Shown in pieces: positions 2,194-35,641 of a stretch of DNA of 37,330 nt. Source of the stretch: an alpha proteobacterium SCGC AAA536-K22 (GTDB lineage Bacteria > Pseudomonadota > Alphaproteobacteria > Puniceispirillales > Marisalimonadaceae); assembly GCA_000421325.1 (NCBI GenBank), contig ATWQ01000017.1:1-37330 (forward strand). The letters are read 5' to 3'. The notes below the pieces were generated by a model that had not been told where the DNA came from, did not search any database, and was given only the letters and a program-made list of their open reading frames with translations. Positions within the stretch are counted from its first letter, which is position 1. Every line of letters begins with the position of its first letter. The position numbers and the translations under genes are program-made.

Positions 2194-3045
2194 TTATTTG
2201 CATTTTAATGATTTTAGTTCAGGGTATCTATCAAACAATATATCAGCAGGCCTTTCGCCTGATCGAAGTGGGTCAATAAGCATAACTTGGCTTGGCATTA
2301 TATTAGTTATGTTGCAATCTGTTCCAAAGAGTTGGAAATAATTGATAATATTCGAGTACCAAGTCATCTCGGCCTCCTTCGGAGATGTAACTTCAAATGC
2401 TATGCGCTCCCTACCAAAGTATTCTATAACTTCACTCAGTACATCTTTTGCTAATTCAGCTTGGAGTTCAATTTCTTCATGATCAATTAGTACTGTGAAT
2501 GCACCATGTTCTAAAAAAGGTTCTGCAGAGCTAATAATTTGTTTGGCGTTGGATGCTTTGGCTTTTTCTACCTTTCTCCAACCGCTTTCAGGATGATGTT
2601 CATATATCAAACTCATTCCACAATCGATGGCGCGTTGTCGCCAGGCTTTTAATTGCGAGCCAGGAACGTCATCAAACGTATTCATGAACTCCATTACTGA
2701 GAAGCCTATATTAGCCGCAGCCTCTATAGCTTCATCAACAACACTTTTTCTATAAGCCCTTAAGAAAAAACCATGATCTAAATAGGGTTGAATTGAATAA
2801 CGTTTATACAGAGCAATCTTGCGTTTTAGCCAAGCCTCGGGGTGCCCAAGAATTTGGGGAGTCGTAATTTTGACATAGTCAATTCTCTCTCCCGCTACTT
2901 CAAGAAAGTCCTCCAGTTCAATCAAGCCCATCCGTTCATGATACCATGGCGCTTCATCAAAACCGACGTCTTTGATCCAAATTTGGTTTTTTGATCTAGG
3001 TTTGGGCTCAGTATGACTTAGATCGAATAGTTTTCTGATAGACAT
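2194..3045 (-). CDS. ComA-like (phosphosulfolactate synthase family) TIM-barrel enzyme, copy A
   Basis: A 283-residue protein that I assign to the ComA family; the founding enzyme joins sulfite to phosphoenolpyruvate, giving phosphosulfolactate. Family landmarks in order: GLIELEDFLEVAGERIDYVKI (40-60, with the barrel lysine K59), VMEFMNTFDDVP (118-128), IYEHHPESG (147-155), VLIDHEE (185-191), FEVTSP (217-222), and FGTDCNITNI...DPLRSGERP (240-266), which parallels the FGxxVNLxNI...ETLRRGLRGD end of ComA. Length (about 250-285) fits. The start ATG has only a weak AAAGAG ribosome site. A LacI-type operator inside a promoter lies 135 bases upstream. The gene is less AT-rich than its neighbours. 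Substitutions around the substrate loops mean the substrate may differ from sulfite plus PEP. ComB and ComC are absent nearby. Confidence 0.75.
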   Translation of the reverse strand: MSIRKLFDLSHTEPKPRSKNQIWIKDVGFDEAPWYHERMGLIELEDFLEVAGERIDYVKITTPQILGHPEAWLKRKIALYKRYSIQPYLDHGFFLRAYRKSVVDEAIEAAANIGFSVMEFMNTFDDVPGSQLKAWRQRAIDCGMSLIYEHHPESGWRKVEKAKASNAKQIISSAEPFLEHGAFTVLIDHEEIELQAELAKDVLSEVIEYFGRERIAFEVTSPKEAEMTWYSNIINYFQLFGTDCNITNIMPSQVMLIDPLRSGERPADILFDRYPELKSLKCK

Positions 3046-3171
3046 GGGGCTCTTTCTTATAATTTACTGAGTGCCAAAGCCTTAAGTTAATAAATATAAA
3101 GCTTACTCGCCACCTATCATACCTAGAAATTATTCTGGTAATTTCATTAAACTTTGAGTAACACGAAACAA

Positions 3172-3200
3172 TAATTAAATGATAACGTTATCAAAATCAA
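3172..3200 (-). promoter_or_regulatory. Promoter for the ComA-like copy A gene
   Basis: Read on the minus strand: TTGATT (3200-3195) as -35, a 17-base spacer filled by the operator, and TAATTA (3177-3172) as -10-like element. It leaves a leader of about 120 bases before the ATG at 3045. The layout matches that of the transporter promoter at 4367-4395, which makes it more believable than the individual hexamers would. Confidence 0.5.
3180..3193. promoter_or_regulatory. LacI-family operator, copy 1
   Basis: A perfect 14-bp palindrome, TGATAACGTTATCA, with the central CG usual for LacI/GalR-family operators. It lies between the 3' end of the regulator gene and the start of the ComA-like gene, inside a promoter spacer, so binding would block transcription of the enzyme gene. 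The same 14 bases occur at 4378-4391. Confidence 0.85.
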
Positions 3201-3217
3201 GTTCAAATGATAGCTTA

Positions 3218-4258
3218 TTATTTTTTTTCCCTAACTGGTCCTGAAGAACCTCGTTCAATTAGTTTACAAGGCAGTATTATTTTTTTTGTTTGCCACTCAA
3301 CGGGGGCTTCGATCTTTTCTATTAATGACTTAGCAGCAAGACTTCCAATTTGTGACCGGTTTTTTTCTACCGTTGTGAGTGTTGGATAGCTTATTTCACC
3401 AGATAGAATACCATCCATACCAATGATGGAAAGTTCATCTGGAACTTTTATCCCTTTTTCATTTGCAACATGTAAGGCTGCCAAAGCAAGAATATCATTT
3501 GATGCAAAAATGGCTGTTGCGTGCGTATCCTTGCTTAAGAACTTTCTCATAGCAGTTCTGGCCTGAGAAAATGAGTCCAAAGAGCTTACACTCATATCGC
3601 ATTTTATACACAAGTCTTCCGAGAAAAACAAATTCCGGTTAGAGCAAAAATCTTTCATTATTTGCAAACGCCACGATGAATCGGCGCTCATCATGGAACC
3701 GCCCATAAATAGTGCTATATTGCGATGCCCAAATTCAAAGAGCCGTTCAAGTGCTAAAGCCATGCCGCCCTTACTATCATTTCCAATTGTGTCGTAGCCT
3801 AAGAACTCGTCAGAATTTGTAAGTAAAATAATCGGTAAACTTTCTAAAACTTTTAAATCAGCTCTGGGATGAGATGGTGATATTATAGCTCCTTCTACTC
3901 GGGATTGAATCATGTATTTAAAGTTATCTTGCTCAATTTTTGGATTCCATTCATTGTTAAGTTGAATAATGCTGTACCCATATTCCCTGATCTTGTTTTG
4001 AACTCCCTTTATTAATTCTGGAAAGAAAGGATTGGTTAAATCTGCAATAGAAATAGCTATGCTTTTTGTCTTCTGGCGTCGAAAGTTTGCGGCTAAAATA
4101 TTTCGCTCATAACCTATCTTCCTTGCGGCCGACAAAACTTTTTTTCTAGTCTTTTCTTTTACTTGAATTTCTTTTTGCCCATTTAAAACCCTAGCAACAG
4201 TGGCTTGGGATAAACTACACTCTCTGGCAACATCAACAATTGTTGCTTTACTGCTCAT
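3218..4258 (-). CDS. LacI-family transcriptional regulator
   Basis: A 346-residue one-domain-plus-HTH repressor of the LacI/GalR family. Residues 5-26 (ATIVDVARECSLSQATVARVLN) are the helix-turn-helix, followed by a hinge region (YERNILAANFRRQ) and the signature start of the periplasmic-binding-protein-like sensor (SIAISIADLTNPFFPELIKGVQ). The ligand core continues to the end (FASNDILALAALHVANEKGIKVPDELSIIGMDG). It starts at ATG 4258 with AAGGGGG about a dozen bases upstream. It stands between two copies of a perfect palindrome, one before each flanking unit, so it most likely represses the ComA-like gene and the transporter operon, and may control itself. The inducer is unknown and is presumably the imported compound or a product. 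Base composition is less AT-rich than the backbone. Confidence 0.93.
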   Translation of the reverse strand: MSSKATIVDVARECSLSQATVARVLNGQKEIQVKEKTRKKVLSAARKIGYERNILAANFRRQKTKSIAISIADLTNPFFPELIKGVQNKIREYGYSIIQLNNEWNPKIEQDNFKYMIQSRVEGAIISPSHPRADLKVLESLPIILLTNSDEFLGYDTIGNDSKGGMALALERLFEFGHRNIALFMGGSMMSADSSWRLQIMKDFCSNRNLFFSEDLCIKCDMSVSSLDSFSQARTAMRKFLSKDTHATAIFASNDILALAALHVANEKGIKVPDELSIIGMDGILSGEISYPTLTTVEKNRSQIGSLAAKSLIEKIEAPVEWQTKKIILPCKLIERGSSGPVREKK

Positions 4259-4366
4259 TTAAACGGACCCCCTTTATTAAAATTGTGAGTTGAAAAATCG
4301 TTAAAGTCAACCCAGAAGCTAAAAATATATTTAAGGCATTATAAATAAAATTATAGTAAAAAAATA

Positions 4367-4395
4367 TTGACATAAAATGATAACGTTATCATATT
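4367..4395 (+). promoter_or_regulatory. Promoter of the TTT transporter operon
   Basis: A consensus -35 TTGACA at 4367-4372, a 17-base spacer occupied by the operator, and CATATT at 4390-4395 as -10 (TATTAT at 4392-4397 is an alternative with a 19-base spacer). It drives tctC 60 bases downstream. Repressor on the spacer would exclude RNA polymerase. Confidence 0.6.
4377..4392. promoter_or_regulatory. LacI-family operator, copy 2
   Basis: A perfect 16-bp palindrome, ATGATAACGTTATCAT, sharing its inner 14 bases exactly with the site at 3180-3193. It overlaps the spacer of the tctC promoter and lies about 120 bases upstream of the divergent regulator gene, so it could serve both control of the transporter and autoregulation. 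Confidence 0.88.
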
Positions 4396-4456
4396 ATTTT
4401 TAATGTAACAAAACTAAAACTAGAATTTTAAGTAGTTATTATTAGGAGGTTAAACT

Positions 4457-5533
4457 ATGCATAAATTTTTGATACTATTTGTCGTGTCCTTTTTCTCACT
4501 AACATCAGTTGTCAGTGCGGAAGTGGATTTTTCAGGTAAAACTATTACTTGGGTTGTCCCTTTTAAAGAGGGTGGCGGCACTAGCAGATTCTCAAGGTTT
4601 ATTCAACCATTCCTGACTAAATATCTACCTGGTAATCCCACAATTAAAATTATGCATATTCCAGGTGGAGGTGCTATCAAAGGATCAAATTATTTTGAAA
4701 AAAATGCTAAACCAGATGGTACATATATTTTTGGCTGCTCAACATCAGTAATAGTTAACGTAGCCACAGGCAATCCTCTTGTTAAGTACAATTTAAGTGC
4801 TTATGAACCAGTACTTTTGTTACCTCAAAATACACATTGGTTTACTAGAAGCGATTTGATAGATGAAGCCCACGATATTAGTAAATTACAAAAGAGAAAA
4901 CTTGTTTTATATGGTTTAAAAACTCCTGCTTCCGCTGATCTGTTTCATATTTGGGTTTTTGATAAAATTGGTATCAAAGGAGCCAAGCCTATACCGGGAT
5001 TATCCTCATCAGGTGCATGGCAGGCATTCCAAAGAGGAGAGATACATCTAAATTCTCAGGGTGCAGCTAAATATATAAAAAATGTTAAGCCAGAAATAAA
5101 AGAGGGTAAAATTTTAGATATTATGACACTTGGACTTGTTGACGCAAATGGCAATATTTCAAGAAATCCATTAGCTCCAAATGCACCTACATTTCCTGAG
5201 ATGTACGAAAAAGTTAATGGTAAAAAATTGTCTGGAGATGACTTGGAAGCTTTCTATTCTATTGCGGCTGCATGGTCTCAAGCATCAAAATCAATGTTAT
5301 TACCTGAAAATACTCCAAATGAAATTGTTAAAGTGTATAGAGATGCAGCAAAAAAAATGGTAAATGATCCTGATTTTAAAGCAAAAGCAACAAAGGTATT
5401 AGGACCATATCCTTTGACTGTTGGCGAGGAAGCTGGTGCTATTATAAAAAAGGCAGCTATTTTTTCTGAAAATACAAAAAAACAGCTTAACAAGGTTTTA
5501 AAGAAACATAAATTTACTTACAGAGTTAAGTAA
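4457..5533 (+). CDS. TctC-family (Bug) substrate-binding protein of a tripartite tricarboxylate transporter
   Basis: A 358-residue periplasmic binding protein. Residues 1-21 are a signal peptide (MHKF, hydrophobic core, SVVSA before EVDF). The mature N-terminus has the TctC pattern ITWVVPFKEGGGTSRFSRFIQPFL (30-53), then PGNPTIKIMHIPGGGAIKGSNYF and KPDGTYIFG. Bug proteins bind small carboxylates and related anions; the GGGTSRFSR loop is the family's anion-coordinating region. The ATG follows an excellent AGGAGG at 4444-4449 with seven bases spacing, so high expression is expected once derepressed. It is the first gene of an operon with the permease fusion and the second ComA-like enzyme; a strong hairpin follows its stop. 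The ligand cannot be named from sequence; a ComA-type neighbour hints at a phospho- or sulfo-carboxylate or similar acid. Confidence 0.9.
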   Translation: MHKFLILFVVSFFSLTSVVSAEVDFSGKTITWVVPFKEGGGTSRFSRFIQPFLTKYLPGNPTIKIMHIPGGGAIKGSNYFEKNAKPDGTYIFGCSTSVIVNVATGNPLVKYNLSAYEPVLLLPQNTHWFTRSDLIDEAHDISKLQKRKLVLYGLKTPASADLFHIWVFDKIGIKGAKPIPGLSSSGAWQAFQRGEIHLNSQGAAKYIKNVKPEIKEGKILDIMTLGLVDANGNISRNPLAPNAPTFPEMYEKVNGKKLSGDDLEAFYSIAAAWSQASKSMLLPENTPNEIVKVYRDAAKKMVNDPDFKAKATKVLGPYPLTVGEEAGAIIKKAAIFSENTKKQLNKVLKKHKFTYRVK

Positions 5534-5542
5534 ATTTTAAAA

Positions 5543-5569
5543 ATAACTGCCGTTTTTAACGGCAGTTAT
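5543..5569 (+). terminator. Perfect 12-bp hairpin between tctC and tctA
   Basis: ATAACTGCCGTT (5543-5554) pairs with AACGGCAGTTAT (5558-5569) across a three-base loop, and a T-rich stretch ending TTTTTAT begins seven bases after it. It starts nine bases after the tctC stop and lies 13 bases before the tctA start. It probably acts as a partial terminator or as an mRNA-end stabiliser, giving more binding protein than permease. The U-run is not immediate, so full termination is unlikely. Confidence 0.7.
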
Positions 5570-5582
5570 AGAATGTTTTTAT

Positions 5583-8009
5583 ATGGAACAATTTATCTCT
5601 GCGTTTTTTCAATTATTTGAATTAACACACCTTATATTTTTGTTTGGTGGTACTTTACTTGGTCTTGTAGTAGGTATTTTACCAGGTTTAGGAGGAACTT
5701 CTGGATTAGCACTTGTATTACCATTTATATTTAATCTTGAACCATCCTATGCATTGGCTATGATGATTGGAGTATTGGCTCCTACTACTACCTCAGACAC
5801 ATTTCCGGCAGTATTAATGGGTATCCCTGGCACTGCTGGTTCTCAAGCTACTGTTATGGATGGCTTTCCTCTGTCTAAAAAAGGAATGGCTGCTAGAGCT
5901 CTAAGTGCAGCATTTTGTTCTTCTTTAATGGGGGGTATTTTTGGTGCCTTAATCTTATCAATTTCTATTTATTATGCCATACCAATAATAATGGCTTTCG
6001 GATTTGGTGAACAATTTTTACTTATTATTCTTGCTCTTTTAATGGTCGGTGCTCTGACTGGTGAAAATTTTGTAAAAGGCGTGACTGCTTGTATTATAGG
6101 TTTGATAATTGGTTCTATTGGTTCAGCTCCAATTACTGGTGATCCAAGATTTACATTTGGCACTCTTTATTTAATAGAGGGTGTACCAATTGTAATTGTT
6201 GGTCTAGGCTTGTTTGCTATACCTGAAATCATAGGACTTCTTGACACTAAGGGGGCTATAGCAAAATCATTAAAAAATGAAAGAGGATGGTTTCGTGGTA
6301 TTAAAGATGTTTTTAAAAATTGGTTTCTTGTAATCCGTTGCTCTGCCATTGGCTGCATGGTTGGCGCATTACCCGGTTTAGGTGGTACTGTTGTAGACTG
6401 GATTGCATATAGTCACTTAAAACAAACTGCAAAGGAAACTTCAAATATAGGAAAAGGTGATATCAGAGGTGTTATAGCACCAGAATCTGCAAATAATGCG
6501 AAAGAAGGTGGCGCTTTAATACCTACACTGCTTTTTGGAATACCTGGCTCTGGAAATAAGGTTTTACTCCTAGGTGGGTTTATTTTAATCGGTATTGAAC
6601 CAGGTATAGAAATGGTAACCACTCACTTAGACCTAACGTACCTTATGATTTGGTCTTTAGCACTTGCAAATATACTAGGTGCTGGATTGTGCATCGGATT
6701 TGCATCACATATTTCTAAATTAACACTGACTACCGATTCAGATGCTTTGGGTGTGGAAAATATTACACTGCCATTAACACATTCTAAAATATATACATAT
6801 TTAGCAAATCATAAAAAAGAAAAACAAAGATCTAAGTCAAATTTTCCCAAAAAATTAATTACAGATGTAGATGAAAATCATTCAATTAATGGACGAGGTT
6901 CTAAGTCTATAAATATGAATTACGAATTAGTTTGGGATAATATTTTAGATCCTGAAACCTTAATTAGAGTTTTACCAGGTTCCAAAGATATACAAATAAA
7001 AGAACCACACTTATATACAGGCGAAATTAATATTAACTTTGGTCCAATTACAGGAAAATATGACTTTTCAGTTCAGTTAACAGATCTAGTAAAACCAATT
7101 AGTTTTAAATTAAAAGGGAGTGCAACTGGAAGTCTCGGAAGTGCAACAGGTAAAGGCAAAATAACACTAGTTAGATATTATATACTTGCACCTGTAATGA
7201 TAGTTTTAATTTTTTTTGCTACATTCAATTTCAATAGAGATTGGTATGATTTTATTGGATTGCTTGGTTTTGGGCTAATAGGAATAACTTTTAAGGCATT
7301 TGGATGGTCTAGACCTGCTTTATTAATAGGTTTCTTTCTTTCTACTAAAGTTGAATTACTTAGTTATCAGACACAAGCAGTTTACGGATTAACTTTTCTT
7401 ACTAGACCAGTATCAATTATTCTTATAGTTTTATGTTTTGGAACAATTTTATTGCTTTTAAGACAAAAATTTAAACAAAGTTATACTTCAAGTGCATTAA
7501 AAAATAAAAAAAATCAAATTTACTATGTATTAATTTTACTTGTTTTACCGTTATTGATGATTTCAGTAATATCGTCTTTGGATTATAGGGCAAGTTTATA
7601 TCCTATTAGTCTATGTGTTATTTCAATAATACTTTTGATGATTATATTTTTTGTAAAAATTATTGACTATAATGAACATCCTTTATTAAACAATTCGATT
7701 GTTAAATTTGTAAATATGAATATTTATGAACAGAATAGTGGCTTTAATAATCAATTTTCCTATTACTTAAGCTTTATAGGCTACTTAATAATGAATTTTG
7801 TTGTGGGCTTTCCAATAGCCTCTGTTATTTTTATTAATACTTTCATTCTTTTTCATGATAAAAGAGATTATAAAATTGCAATTATAATTTCTCTTATATT
7901 ATTGTTAGTTCTTTGGTTTTTGTCATTTATGTTGACACTCCAATTTCCTAATGGTCTTATTGATATGATAATCGATTTGCCATGGTGGTTAGGTGGCAGC
8001 TTAAACTAA
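5583..8009 (+). CDS. TctA-TctB fusion permease with an inserted CoxG-like domain
   Basis: An 808-residue inner-membrane protein, far longer than ordinary TctA (about 500). Residues 1-382 are the TctA core: GILPGLGGTSG (31-41), IPGTAGSQATVMDGFPLSKKG (81-101), GALPGLGG (261-268) and GDIRGVIAPESANNAKEGG (292-310). Residues about 384-530 are a soluble insertion; 436-530 match CoxG-type SRPBCC proteins (VWDNILDPETLIRVLPG, INFGPITGKYDF, KLKGSATGSLGSATGKGKITL). Residues 531-626 resume TctA helices (DFIGLLGFGLIGITF, FLTRPVSIILI). Residues about 645-795 look like a TctB unit: four or five helices ending in LQFPNGLIDMI. No separate tctB gene exists here, which supports the fusion. The ATG at 5583 has no clear ribosome site and follows a hairpin. 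It works with the TctC protein upstream as a secondary uptake system. Confidence 0.85.
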   Translation: MEQFISAFFQLFELTHLIFLFGGTLLGLVVGILPGLGGTSGLALVLPFIFNLEPSYALAMMIGVLAPTTTSDTFPAVLMGIPGTAGSQATVMDGFPLSKKGMAARALSAAFCSSLMGGIFGALILSISIYYAIPIIMAFGFGEQFLLIILALLMVGALTGENFVKGVTACIIGLIIGSIGSAPITGDPRFTFGTLYLIEGVPIVIVGLGLFAIPEIIGLLDTKGAIAKSLKNERGWFRGIKDVFKNWFLVIRCSAIGCMVGALPGLGGTVVDWIAYSHLKQTAKETSNIGKGDIRGVIAPESANNAKEGGALIPTLLFGIPGSGNKVLLLGGFILIGIEPGIEMVTTHLDLTYLMIWSLALANILGAGLCIGFASHISKLTLTTDSDALGVENITLPLTHSKIYTYLANHKKEKQRSKSNFPKKLITDVDENHSINGRGSKSINMNYELVWDNILDPETLIRVLPGSKDIQIKEPHLYTGEININFGPITGKYDFSVQLTDLVKPISFKLKGSATGSLGSATGKGKITLVRYYILAPVMIVLIFFATFNFNRDWYDFIGLLGFGLIGITFKAFGWSRPALLIGFFLSTKVELLSYQTQAVYGLTFLTRPVSIILIVLCFGTILLLLRQKFKQSYTSSALKNKKNQIYYVLILLVLPLLMISVISSLDYRASLYPISLCVISIILLMIIFFVKIIDYNEHPLLNNSIVKFVNMNIYEQNSGFNNQFSYYLSFIGYLIMNFVVGFPIASVIFINTFILFHDKRDYKIAIIISLILLLVLWFLSFMLTLQFPNGLIDMIIDLPWWLGGSLN
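6891..7172 (+). other. CoxG-like (SRPBCC) domain inside the permease
   Basis: Codons 437-530 of the permease. The order of motifs follows the CoxG family: a first strand (NGRGSKSINM), VWDNILDPETL, LPGSKDI, a GPITGKYDFSVQLTDL strand pair, and the Gly/Ala-rich GSATGSLGSATGKGKITL strand. The usual C-terminal helix of CoxG is not seen; the chain goes straight into a membrane helix (YYILAPVMIVLIFF). Known CoxG proteins bind hydrophobic ligands or recruit CO dehydrogenase to the membrane. Its job in a transporter is unknown. Confidence 0.72.
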
Positions 8010-8025
8010 ATTCCTGAAGTACAAA

Positions 8026-8820
8026 ATGTCTAAAAAACCTTTCCCTAATTTACCATTTATAAAAAGAGATAATAAACCTAGAGAAACTGGTATAAACTAT
8101 GTAAGATCACCTGTAATTGTCGGTAAATCTATAGAAGACTATCTTGAAGCATACGGGGATATGGTTGACATATTGAAGCTTTCAGGAAAACAAGCGGCTC
8201 AAATTAATGAAAATTCATTAATTGATTTCATTTCTACATGTAAAAAATTCAATGTCATGGTTTCTATAGGTAATCCTGTCATGGACGTTGCTTTAATAGG
8301 TGGTAGAAAAGCTGTTGATGATTATATAAATAAATGTGTAGATTTAGGTGTTGATATAATTGAAATATCGAGTATTGCTCGATCAATTGATGATGACGTT
8401 GTTTGTACATTAATTGAAAAAGTTTCTAAGAAAGGTATTAAAGTCCTTAATGAAATCGGTGTGGCTTTTGCTCACTCTGAAGTAAATGAAGAATCTATCT
8501 TTGTACAAAGATTAATAAATCAATCAAAAAAATTTCTCAATGCGGGCTCGTGGAAGATCTTGTTAGAATCTGAGGGATTAACAGAAAATATGAATAAAGA
8601 AAATTATAGATGGAATATTATTGACAGGATTATTAGCCCTCTAAAATTATCCCAGTTTATGGTTGAAGCAGATGATCAAGATGTCTTTTGTAAATATATA
8701 GAAATTTATGGCCCAAATGTTAATATGATGATCGATTATTCACGTCTCTTGAAAATGGAGGACGCGAGAATTGGTTATGGTCCCTCACAATTTCTTTGGG
8801 GGAAAGTCGTAAAATATTAG
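8026..8820 (+). CDS. ComA-like (phosphosulfolactate synthase family) TIM-barrel enzyme, copy B
   Basis: A 264-residue protein of the same family as the gene at 2194-3045 but strongly diverged from it. Landmarks: EDYLEAYGDMVDILKLSG (37-54, barrel lysine K51), VDIIEISSIARSI (109-121, like the EISDGS strand of ComA), KVLNEIGV (139-146, like the TEVGKK strand), WKILLESEGLTEN (176-188, like the EGRESG strand), FMVEADDQDVF (211-221) and YGPNVNMMIDYSRLLKMEDARIGYGP (228-253), which fits the family's FGPNVNLGNI...LE.LR.GLRGD ending. It lies 16 bases after the permease gene and is the last gene of the tctC operon, so it should act on the imported compound or its product. The ribosome site is weak. Base usage matches the AT-rich backbone, unlike copy A. 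True substrate unknown. Confidence 0.73.
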   Translation: MSKKPFPNLPFIKRDNKPRETGINYVRSPVIVGKSIEDYLEAYGDMVDILKLSGKQAAQINENSLIDFISTCKKFNVMVSIGNPVMDVALIGGRKAVDDYINKCVDLGVDIIEISSIARSIDDDVVCTLIEKVSKKGIKVLNEIGVAFAHSEVNEESIFVQRLINQSKKFLNAGSWKILLESEGLTENMNKENYRWNIIDRIISPLKLSQFMVEADDQDVFCKYIEIYGPNVNMMIDYSRLLKMEDARIGYGPSQFLWGKVVKY

Positions 8821-8855
8821 ATAATTACAAGTAAAAAAAGACACTTTTTAGAAAG

Positions 8856-8921
8856 TAACCTGTCACACTCAAAGAAATAACCTGTCACACTCAAGGGCAT
8901 AACCTGTCACCCTCTGAAAAA
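8856..8921. repeat. Three tandem 22-bp repeats (iteron-like)
   Basis: Three exact-period units begin at 8856, 8878 and 8900, each opening with TAACCTGTCAC; the first two also share ACTCAA, the third is more diverged. Exact phasing at about two helical turns suggests binding sites for a recombinase, transposase or replication-type protein, as seen at the ends of some insertion sequences. No such gene is left nearby. Confidence 0.85.
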
Positions 8922-9102: not shown

Positions 9103-9178
9103 TGGTGAGCGCGACAGGATTCGAACCTGTGACCCATTGATTAAAAGTCAATTGCTCTACCAACTGAGCTACGCGCCC
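9103..9178 (-). tRNA. tRNA-Lys (anticodon TTT)
   Basis: A complete 76-base cloverleaf: acceptor GGGCGCG/CGCGCTC (one G-T pair), D-arm GCTC-AGTTGGTA-GAGC, anticodon arm ATTGA-CTTTTAA-TCAAT with anticodon TTT at 9145-9143, variable GGGTC, T-arm ACAGG-TTCGAAT-CCTGT, A73 and an encoded CCA. It reads leftwards, away from coaD, and its 3' flank carries the repeats described above, which makes it the likely integration target of the accessory block. Confidence 0.97.
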
Positions 9179-33769: not shown

Positions 33770-35620
33770 TTAATTTTTATGAATATTTTTTGGAATGAAA
33801 TCTGATTTTTCAACCTCACGAGGAGCAGGTATCCAAACTTTTCTATCAGGATGCATTCCTGCTCCAAAAATAGCTGAAACAGCAGAGCTTCTCATTCTAT
33901 TTAATAATCTAGTATCGGCAATTCCTACTGCAGGGTGCAAACCATTATTAGTCTCTACAACTGTTTGCCATTCATTTTTTCTTTCTTCTAAAGTAGTTTG
34001 ATCCAATAATTGAGTACAAGTTAGGGTATTATTATTCAGATCAACCACGATTTCATCTTTATCTTTGATTAAACCAATCGGACCACCTACAGCGGCTTCT
34101 GGTCCAACATGACCAATAACAAGGCCAACTGATCCTCCAGAAAAACGACCATCAGTCATCAATCCCACAATTATATTTTTTTCTCTACATAATGCAGTTA
34201 TTCTTGATGTTGAATCTAACATTTCTGGCATTCCAGGACCACCTACTGGACCTTCATATCTAACTATTATCATATCTTTATTCATAAATTTATCTGGTTC
34301 ATTTTCCAAAGCATCAAGTAGTTTTTGTTCACCATCAAATATCCTGGCTCTTCCAACAAATATATTGTTTTCTAAACCACCTTCAACACCAGCTAATTTT
34401 AAAATTGAGCTATATTCTGGCGATAAGTTACCTCCTAAAAGTCTAAGTCCTCCTGTTTCTTTAAAAGGTTTTTTCACAGAATATATTACTTCCCCATCGG
34501 GACTTTTAGGATCGAGCCTTATAATTTGCTCTTTTAATGTTTCACCAGTACATGTGAGTGTGTTTCCGTTTAACAAGCCTGAATCTAGCAAATCTTTTAC
34601 AAAAACTTGAACACCACCCTTAGCATCTATATCTACCATTGAATATTTACCAAATGGTCTAGCGTTGACTAAAACAGGAACAACATTTTTTGATAGATGA
34701 TTAAATTCCTCAAAACTCATAATATCTTCATTAAAGTTATTATAGCCTGCAGCACGAGCTAATTCTGGAGCATGAAGCATTACATTAGTTGAACCACCTA
34801 TAGACATAGCAACTATAATAGCATTTCTTATAGAATCTCTTGTGACTATATCTCTAGGTTTAACATCATTTTTGATCATATTATCTAAATAAGTAATTAA
34901 TTTGTTAGGAAAAGTCTCTATTCTTCTTTGATCTTCTGAAGCAGGTGAGACCATTTCTAAGGGCTGCATACCAACGACACCAATAAAAGTTTGCATTGTA
35001 TTATATGTAAAGATACCCCCACAACTTCCATGACCTGGGCATGCTTCACATGCAATTCTTTTTTTTAATTCTTCATCATCACTTCCGGCTAATTGATAGG
35101 CTGTTATTAAATCAATAGGTTCTTTTGTTACTGAATCTACCCCAGGTCTAATAGATCCATCAGACATGATTATTGCTGGCCTATTGTGTTCCAAAATAGC
35201 AGACAATGTTCCTACAGGAGGTTTGTCACAAGCAACAACTGCAATAGTTCCTTCAAGACCTGAGGCACTAAGGTGCTCACACAACGTGTCGTTGGTCACT
35301 TCTCTTCCTATAAGTGAATAACGCATTTCTTTTGTTCCATTTCTTATGCCGTCTGATGTCGCCACGGTATATTCAGGTTGAACTAAACGCATAAATATAT
35401 CACCTGGTTTTTGTCCTATTCTTAATCTTAAACACTCGTGTATTGTTCTAACTTTTTCTTCAACACCAAAATAACATTGTGAGTCACCTTTATTACCAAC
35501 AACTCCAATTGAAGGTTCATGAATTAAATCTAAGTCAGTATTTAAATTCCTTGCAACTCCGAATGTTTGAGAGTTTCTACCGGGATTTTTATCGATTAAA
35601 ACTGTTTTTGAATTTTTCAT
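33770..35620 (-). CDS. ilvD: IlvD/Edd-family dehydratase, probably dihydroxy-acid dehydratase
   Basis: A 616-residue iron-sulfur dehydratase. The expected function is the dihydroxy-acid step of valine, isoleucine and pantothenate synthesis. Cluster cysteines appear in VVACDKPPVGTLSA and CEACPGHGSCGGIFTYNTMQ; SDGIRNGTKEMRYSL, SIGGSTNVMLHAPELARAAG, VRYEGPVGGPGMPEM and LMTDGRFSGGSVGLVIGHVGPEAAVGGPI are family blocks. The first cysteine motif reads CDKPPVGT rather than the usual CDKTxPGM, and the N-terminus is also unusual, so a sugar-acid dehydratase is an alternative. The ATG at 35620 has GGAG six bases upstream and is preferred over the TTG at 35632. It follows valS by 21 bases. Confidence 0.8.
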   Translation of the reverse strand: MKNSKTVLIDKNPGRNSQTFGVARNLNTDLDLIHEPSIGVVGNKGDSQCYFGVEEKVRTIHECLRLRIGQKPGDIFMRLVQPEYTVATSDGIRNGTKEMRYSLIGREVTNDTLCEHLSASGLEGTIAVVACDKPPVGTLSAILEHNRPAIIMSDGSIRPGVDSVTKEPIDLITAYQLAGSDDEELKKRIACEACPGHGSCGGIFTYNTMQTFIGVVGMQPLEMVSPASEDQRRIETFPNKLITYLDNMIKNDVKPRDIVTRDSIRNAIIVAMSIGGSTNVMLHAPELARAAGYNNFNEDIMSFEEFNHLSKNVVPVLVNARPFGKYSMVDIDAKGGVQVFVKDLLDSGLLNGNTLTCTGETLKEQIIRLDPKSPDGEVIYSVKKPFKETGGLRLLGGNLSPEYSSILKLAGVEGGLENNIFVGRARIFDGEQKLLDALENEPDKFMNKDMIIVRYEGPVGGPGMPEMLDSTSRITALCREKNIIVGLMTDGRFSGGSVGLVIGHVGPEAAVGGPIGLIKDKDEIVVDLNNNTLTCTQLLDQTTLEERKNEWQTVVETNNGLHPAVGIADTRLLNRMRSSAVSAIFGAGMHPDRKVWIPAPREVEKSDFIPKNIHKN

Positions 35621-35641
35621 CTGTTTCTCCAATTTACTATC

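Follow-up and report, generated by a model that had tools for sequence, protein, structure and literature searches.

A LacI-associated cassette of two ComA-family barrels and a tripartite tricarboxylate transporter in marine proteobacteria, a candidate route for sugar-acid uptake and breakdown

We examined a 37,330-nucleotide stretch of the alphaproteobacterium SCGC AAA536-K22 (contig ATWQ01000017.1, order Puniceispirillales; hereafter the window), in which a gene cluster combines two members of the ComA (phosphosulfolactate, PSL, synthase) family with a LacI-family repressor and a tripartite tricarboxylate transporter (TTT). An earlier inspection by sequence alone (the sequence-only reading) had described two divergent ComA-family proteins around the repressor and the transporter, and open reading frames (ORFs) for all of them were found as listed here. 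The assembly (2.0 Mb, ~80% complete) contains no PF02679 proteins other than these two, as judged by a PF02679 search.

2194–3045, minus strand: comA1, encoding ComA1, a (beta/alpha)8 barrel of the PF02679 family.
3180–3193: 14-bp palindrome TGATAACGTTATCA resembling a LacI-type operator, with a central CG, 24 bp past the lacI stop and upstream of comA1.
3218–4258, minus strand: lacI, encoding a LacI-family repressor with a helix-turn-helix (HTH) and a periplasmic-binding-type sensor (PF00356, PF13377 and PF00532 over cut-off).
4367–4395, plus strand: promoter-like site TTGACA-17-CATATT, spanning the palindrome before tctC.
4378–4391: second copy of TGATAACGTTATCA, before tctC and inside the spacer of the promoter-like site.
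4457–5533, plus strand: tctC, encoding a divergent TctC/Bug-like periplasmic solute-binding protein with weak phmmer matches; it adjoins tctA in complete loci.
5583–8009, plus strand: tctA, encoding TctA (PF01970, 1.3e-108) with a hydrophobic C-terminal extension.
8026–8820, plus strand: comA2, encoding ComA2, a PF02679-family barrel of a clade neighbouring ComA-like proteins associated with MmgE/PrpD.
6726–7166, plus strand: in-frame insert of 147 codons within tctA that includes a CoxG-like piece (PF06240), probably foreign to the system.

Both proteins belong to the ComA family, ComA1 scoring 144.3 bits and ComA2 167.4 bits with the PF02679 profile (gathering cut-off 25.2). They are 20% identical to each other over 152 amino acids, and their family profiles match each other (hhalign, probability 97.4). 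AlphaFold2 models with a pLDDT (predicted local distance difference test) of 90.7 for ComA1 and 81.1 for ComA2 both had M. jannaschii ComA (1qwg) as first Foldseek match in the PDB, with template modelling (TM) scores by query length of 0.73 and 0.74, respectively. The barrel lysine motif DYVK/DILK and the ending that had been noted in the two proteins are present, the ending of ComA2 having YGPNVN...ARIG in place of FG...LRxG. With TIGR03849, the NCBIfam equivalog model of ComA, the two scored 63 and 72.3 bits and thus stayed far under the cut-off of 280. The tree was built from 48 rows (47 different) of re-extracted or checked sequences and contains long end branches (L137, L048, L044b, L124 and C2_L052) as well as four rows with unusual composition. 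M. jannaschii ComA, proteins of Mycolicibacterium NBB4 and Nocardioides JS614 and three alphaproteobacterial proteins make up a coenzyme M (CoM) group (support 94/94). ComA1 falls outside this group in a clade of its own (100/100), whose stem measures 2.7 changes per column; ComA2, likewise outside, forms a separate clade (100/100) joined to haloarchaeal and Methylosinus proteins (100/99). On this tree ComA1 and ComA2 appear as two separate old branches of the family, and a recent duplication of one ComA gene was dismissed on account of the 20% identity and the separate branches.

Residues were counted, in M. jannaschii numbering, over 6 CoM-type, 15 ComA1-type and 10 ComA2-type rows from which a duplicate row had been removed. 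D40, K43, E103, E133, E205 and R240 are present in every row of all three types, and E168 is retained in the ComA2 rows and is D in the ComA1 rows. R170 is found in none of the ComA1-type or ComA2-type rows, being E in 12/15 and 10/10, respectively, and the loop of the 170s (around G177) is likewise present in 0/15 and 0/10. K209 is Q in all 10 ComA2 rows, and the three commonest residues there in ComA1 are Y (6), L (3) and R (3); K137 is replaced by A, S or D in ComA2 rows, the three commonest in ComA1 being E (7), L (5) and P (1). The corresponding residues of ComA1 and ComA2 in the window are E153 and A147 for K137, E190 and E183 for R170, and Y230 and Q218 for K209. R244 is gone from the ComA2 rows and retained in 7 of the 15 ComA1 rows. 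D90-H91, E149-H150-H151 and D188-H189 are invariant in 28/28 rows of a ComA1 alignment, and D90-H91, H151 and H189 occur in all 15 ComA1-type rows. The lost positive charges presumably serve phosphate or sulfite binding in ComA, and the changed residues would fit a different substrate. The scores under the equivalog cut-off, the position away from the CoM clade and the loss of K137, R170 and K209 together with the 170s loop make it very probable that neither protein is a PSL synthase; a role in coenzyme M biosynthesis was rejected on the same grounds.

These residues also bear on the suggestion, made in the sequence-only reading, that the substrate could be a sulfonate or phospho-acid. Sulfolactate or phosphosulfolactate would then be imported and a ComA-type lyase would run in reverse, with release of sulfite. 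A TTT of this kind exists, SlcHFG importing sulfolactate in Roseovarius and Chromohalobacter (PMC5812351), and on a Natrinema halophilum plasmid a different PF02679 protein (L044, 32007–32822) lies among LLM oxidoreductases, TauE/SafE and a CoA transferase, with a sulfite oxidase further off; the sulfonate idea may therefore hold for another branch of PF02679. In both window proteins, however, other residues stand in place of K137, R170 and K209 and the 170s loop is missing, their clades are not of the CoM type, and the genes adjoining their relatives point to acid sugars. Three haloarchaeal (Natrinema) sequences, a TauE-type exporter, a sulfite oxidase and a fragment of a sulfate exporter, have no homologue (E≤1e-8) in the 75 ComA1 loci described below, and the sulfatases of some relatives yield sulfate, not sulfite. 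No ComB, ComC or sulfolactate lyase was recognised by eye among window ORFs of at least 100 amino acids, no genome-wide search having been made. The suggestion is not supported, and we regard a sulfonate as a very improbable substrate, while a lyase-type use of the ComA barrel in the cassette is possible. In a genome of the window's order, a urease gene cluster is immediately followed by a different PF02679 gene (L038, 8878–9702).

A profile search of genome contigs with a ComA1 profile yielded 75 loci, grouped by recorded name into 52 marine proteobacterial loci, 21 from Chloroflexi/Anaerolineae and two others, namely R. rhizogenes and one alphaproteobacterium without this TTT. The marine group comprises 33 loci of Pelagibacteraceae (SAR11), four of Gammaproteobacteria and one titled archaeon, the rest being SAR116 or other alphaproteobacteria. 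The closest named genome retrieved was SCGC AAA536-G10, whose ComA1 is 97% identical to that of the window. We found comA1, tctC, tctA and comA2 all together in 44 of the 52 marine loci, and in the other eight the missing gene falls beyond the contig end. As the loci were retrieved with ComA1, the fraction measures linkage given ComA1 only; many of the SAR11 loci are, besides, closely related. The four genes are a unit, their arrangement being more than chance. Among eight genomes searched for PF02679, two genes each were found in four (SAR116, SAR11 and two Gammaproteobacteria) and a single one in four (three Chloroflexi and R. rhizogenes). The pair is patchy even within the order of the window, where 18 of 136 genomes carry a PF02679 gene and 8 carry two; ComA1 was found in 5/297 genomes of the family of the SAR11 carrier and in 1/346 genomes of the family of R. 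rhizogenes (Rhizobiaceae).

Two loci differ in their set of ComA genes. In genome G119 of the same order (L037, 9634–13617), TctC, TctA and ComA2 are accompanied by a sulfatase and a GntR regulator, and the single PF02679 gene leaves no ComA1. In locus L052 (1595–2404), LacI and ComA1 are 90–91% identical to their counterparts in the window, and ComA2, beside UxuA, has only 40% identity, possibly through a swap of ComA2. In the window, a tRNA-Lys gene (9103–9178) lies 283 bp past comA2, and three tandem 22-nt repeats of the AAGTAACCTGTCACACTCAAAG type (the second and third 91% and 68% identical to the first) lie between the two (8853–8918). In 11 of 47 loci, the window among them, a tRNA gene for Leu, Val or Lys stands no more than 400 bp from the comA2 stop, against 1.2 expected from random points, the loci being related to one another; close to the L110 cluster there is a tmRNA. 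The proximity of tRNA genes hints at insertion beside them.

The control by LacI that had been proposed gained support from the HTH and sensor domains and from an operator-like palindrome in both gaps flanking lacI. TGATAACGTTATCA occurs in exactly two copies in the 2.0-Mb assembly, both in these gaps, with an expectation in the window of 0.01 at up to one mismatch; it is also found twice in the relative G012, apparently the same genome as G523. Two gammaproteobacterial genomes carry another palindrome, TGAGACCGGTCTCA, in the same two gaps, twice per assembly and nowhere else. Of the 12 other loci with lacI, nine were surveyed alongside the window, allowing up to one mismatch, and a palindrome was found in at least one gap in 10/10 and in both gaps in seven; in L053 and L055 it was seen with one gap examined, and L054 has none in its second gap. 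Loci without lacI showed the palindrome in 0/5 examined. Promoter-like sites are no commoner than in shuffled sequence (6 found, mean 5.8 in shuffles), and the position of the palindrome inside the promoter-like spacer is consistent with the arrangement expected for repression.

The presence of a TTT, as first read from the sequence, is supported by the PF01970 match of TctA. TctC gave no Pfam or NCBIfam match at E≤1 and showed weak phmmer similarity to the solved TctC/Bug proteins 4x9t, 2dvz and 6hke (best E 2.3e-4, for 4x9t); its N terminus looks by eye like a signal peptide. There is no separate tctB gene, and the hydrophobic C-terminal extension of TctA, which has no Pfam match, is possibly a fused TctB. 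Complete TctA relatives are 660–662 amino acids long. The insert is missing from six aligned relatives, its first 71 bases are identical to the end of contig C44 and TAACACT stands at both of its junctions; it is probably an assembly or amplification chimera, and a functional fusion of a CoxG domain to TctA was discarded for these reasons.

The genes next to relatives of the cassette point to sugars and sugar acids. All four gammaproteobacterial loci have an MR_MLE enzyme (13 bp away in L110) and an Amidohydro_2 enzyme after comA1. Behind comA2, three of them have an SDR and an HpcH/HpaI aldolase, the fourth contig stopping earlier, and in two a sulfatase adjoins comA2. The nearest solved structure to the SDR is uronate dehydrogenase 3rft (242 bits). 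The MR_MLE enzyme matches 4ggb with 536 bits and the Amidohydro_2 enzyme 4mup with 279 bits; these are labelled putative protein and amidohydrolase in the structure search, and we take them to be galactarolactone cycloisomerase (Gci) and galactarolactone isomerase (Gli) of Agrobacterium. The nearest solved structures to the HpcH/HpaI protein are HpcH/HpaI aldolases, including keto-deoxy-sugar-acid aldolases. Among SAR116-type relatives, comA2 is followed at a distance of 10 bp by UxaC in one genome and at ~150 bp by UxuA in another. Uronate enzymes were thus found in the cluster in a minority of the 52 marine loci (L110, L111 and L114 of the Gammaproteobacteria; L052 and L113 of the SAR116 type). 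In R. rhizogenes, a ComA1 (57% identity) is accompanied by LacI, an SGL lactonase, a sugar ABC transporter, a 3-oxo-tetronate kinase (OtnK) and a decarboxylase (OtnC), both over their NCBIfam cut-offs, and an enzyme resembling uronate dehydrogenase (Udh; 206 bits to 3rft). An Allorhizobium plasmid has a ComA1 (52%) at the end of a sugar ABC transporter operon, and the 21 Chloroflexi loci carry a RraA-like aldolase in 17 cases, a sulfatase in 18, GH127 in 20 and an SDR in 15. We also considered ComA1 as a stand-in for 2-oxo-tetronate isomerase (OtnI) in R. rhizogenes, where the only OtnI matches are partial and under the cut-off (best 88/325 bits), and set this aside: it concerns one genome, and full-length matches, also under the cut-off (233–273 bits), exist in the assembly of the window and both gammaproteobacterial assemblies. 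Elsewhere in the window (33770–35632) lies a dehydratase of the IlvD/Edd family, possibly of acid sugars, which stays under every listed NCBIfam cut-off (best 426/644).

The computed fold and family, the loss of CoM-type residues, the conserved core, the paired palindromes and the neighbours agree with reading the locus as a so far undescribed module for the catabolism of a small acid. We propose, with a probability of roughly one half, that it serves the LacI-repressed uptake and breakdown of a sugar acid of the uronate/aldarate class by ComA barrels with enolate-type chemistry. Known TTT substrates include galactarate/glucarate (PMC5812351), and a TTT for alginate oligosaccharides has been described in Vibrio C42 (PMC13390454).

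Several observations weigh against this proposal. The roles of the ComA residues are themselves a matter of inference, and the TTT substrates include sulfolactate (PMC5812351). Chloroflexi and R. rhizogenes have ComA1 without ComA2 or this TTT. In 11 SAR11 loci comA1 is followed by genes resembling glucosyl-3-phosphoglycerate phosphatase/synthase, under the NCBIfam cut-offs, and the SAR11 neighbours are mixed between genomes, for which reason we did not count them as members of the pathway. UxaC over the cut-off was found in 0/297 genomes of the family of the SAR11 carrier (two weak partial matches lay under it), in a sample matched in size and centre to that which yielded the five ComA1 carriers; it occurs in 9 of the 136 genomes of the window's order, two of the eight pair-carriers among them, and not in the ~80% complete assembly of the window, where Udh was not searched for. 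Given its absence from the SAR11 family sample and the assembly of the window, UxaC was set aside as a general point of entry for hexuronates, and the hexuronate enzymes are therefore seen as lineage-specific additions.

The same neighbours can be read in another way, in which the two barrels isomerise or epimerise a rarer uronate (e.g. L-guluronate, L-iduronate or D-mannuronate) to D-glucuronate or D-galacturonate for the ordinary hexuronate routes. The genes added in the gammaproteobacterial and SAR116-type loci (uronate dehydrogenase-like, UxaC, UxuA) would work at the level of D-glucuronate/galacturonate or further down, C5 of a uronate suits enolate chemistry through its position alpha to the carboxylate, and many of the Foldseek matches that follow the ComA proteins are D-tagatose/psicose 3-epimerases. 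TM scores of ~0.5 to epimerases are, however, common among TIM barrels, dehydroquinases and aldolases scoring alike; the two enzymes stand on different, old branches, and the absence of UxaC just given counts here as well. We consider such an isomerase role rather unlikely.

ComA2 opens a further alternative, as in Methylosinus, Haladaptatus, Halorussus and several alphaproteobacteria members of its neighbouring clades are encoded next to MmgE/PrpD or close by. MmgE/PrpD was found near PF02679 genes in 5/14 alphaproteobacterial regions (by BLAST label) and 4/8 plasmid regions (by annotation); these regions span several PF02679 branches, and the alphaproteobacterial ones rest on crude ORF calling with doubtful ORFs in high-GC loci and some unlabelled ComA genes. 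Since MmgE/PrpD stands beside sister clades of ComA2, other organic acids are possible substrates, a point that also tells against a sugar acid. The substrate would then be a di- or tricarboxylate resembling tricarballylate or methylcitrate, with ComA2 as the kind of lyase paired elsewhere with an MmgE/PrpD dehydratase, and TTT systems do import di- and tricarboxylates (PMC5812351). Yet no MmgE/PrpD homologue (E≤1e-8) occurs in the 75 ComA1 loci, and the LacI-type sensor and the sugar-acid neighbours of relatives indicate otherwise, which makes a non-sugar acid distinctly unlikely. The haloarchaeal and alphaproteobacterial loci with PF02679 near MmgE/PrpD (L045, L046, L047, L048, L151, L152 and L162) suggest another undescribed pathway.

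For the proposed breakdown of a uronate- or aldarate-class acid we envisage the following course, in which the substrate class, the use of a metal, both reactions, the binding of LacI and its inducer are predictions. LacI would sit on the two identical operators and keep both transcripts off until released by the sugar acid or by an intermediate or product. The TctC-like protein would capture the acid in the periplasm, TctA would import it, and ComA1 and then ComA2 would act on it in turn. Both barrels may keep the Mg2+-carboxylate chemistry of ComA through D40, K43 and the acids at 103, 133, 168 and 205, so that the proton next to the metal-bound carboxylate would be removed and the enolate stabilised. 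ComA1, with the gained D90-H91, H150-H151 and H189, could carry out a beta-elimination or isomerisation of the sugar-acid dehydratase type, and ComA2 the following carbon-carbon cleavage to a pyruvate-type product. This order of steps was chosen because in Chloroflexi, which lack ComA2, ComA1 is mostly accompanied by an aldolase-like enzyme and because relatives of ComA2 often adjoin a dehydratase family (MmgE/PrpD); as an exact assignment to the two proteins it is doubtful. In some relatives hexuronates would be channelled in by further enzymes of this regulon or operon, namely uronate dehydrogenase, enzymes that handle lactones and a keto-deoxy-sugar-acid aldolase, or else UxaC/UxuA, and in SAR11 the four genes would suffice.

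At its fullest, the proposal amounts to a complete sugar-acid pathway free of phosphorylation, in which two enzymes of the ComA fold, a dehydratase/isomerase and a carbon-carbon lyase, are encoded by a compact cassette that has spread among SAR11, SAR116 and marine Gammaproteobacteria; in this complete form we think it unlikely to hold. To our knowledge neither activity is known in PF02679. If true, it would mean new chemistry for the ComA fold and would name a compound of dissolved organic carbon used by some ocean bacteria. The four genes with their paired palindromes provide a compact, testable target of one binding protein and two soluble enzymes. There is also a consequence for annotation, as many proteins of bacteria and archaea are named phosphosulfolactate synthase (among the matches listed, 34 of 35 plasmid PF02679 rows, one record being unannotated). 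At least two branches of these are very probably not that enzyme, and they sit in loci of the sugar-acid uptake and breakdown type, with SAR11 and SAR116 among the hosts. In the literature searched, which omits most subscription papers, we found no publication joining phosphosulfolactate synthase with TTT, MmgE or SAR11; its combination with glucuronate, or PF02679/COG1809, gave nothing related by title, and phosphosulfolactate synthase or the ComA family gave no title on such a pathway. The available part of PMC12636525, retrieved for SAR11, TTT and sugar acid, holds nothing on the cassette, and in that of PMC12421959 PSL synthase appears in the reference list only.

Compared with known systems, the closest in fold is ComA itself (M. 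jannaschii 1qwg, B. subtilis 1u83), which shares with the window proteins the Pfam family, the (beta/alpha)8 fold and D40, K43, E103, E133, E205 and R240. The window proteins are 18–23% identical to it in Foldseek alignments and differ in the loss of K137, R170, K209 and the 170s loop and in their catabolic context. The ComA-like proteins encoded near MmgE/PrpD in haloarchaea, Methylosinus and other alphaproteobacteria belong to clades that adjoin ComA2 in the tree; no ComA1 was recognised beside them in the regions inspected, and L151 has a TctA homologue (35%). SlcHFG has in common the TTT transporter and a marine host (Roseovarius; PMC5812351), whereas no sulfolactate or sulfite gene was recognised beside the cassette of the window. 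The oxidative hexuronate pathway Udh-Gli-Gci of Agrobacterium (PMC6353982) has its counterpart in the gammaproteobacterial relatives, whose clusters with paired palindromes contain the proteins closest to 3rft, 4ggb and 4mup; they add an HpcH/HpaI aldolase and the two ComA barrels, and no enzyme of that pathway was recognised adjoining the cassette of the window. The galactarate/glucarate TctABC of Halomonas (PMC5812351) and the TTT of Vibrio C42 (PMC13390454) share the TctA family and the sugar-acid catabolic setting, in contrast to which the TctC of the window is too divergent for Pfam/NCBIfam and the partner enzymes are ComA barrels. The cassette thus appears, from its sequences, to bring a known fold and a known transporter together in an undescribed combination, with changed active-site positions.

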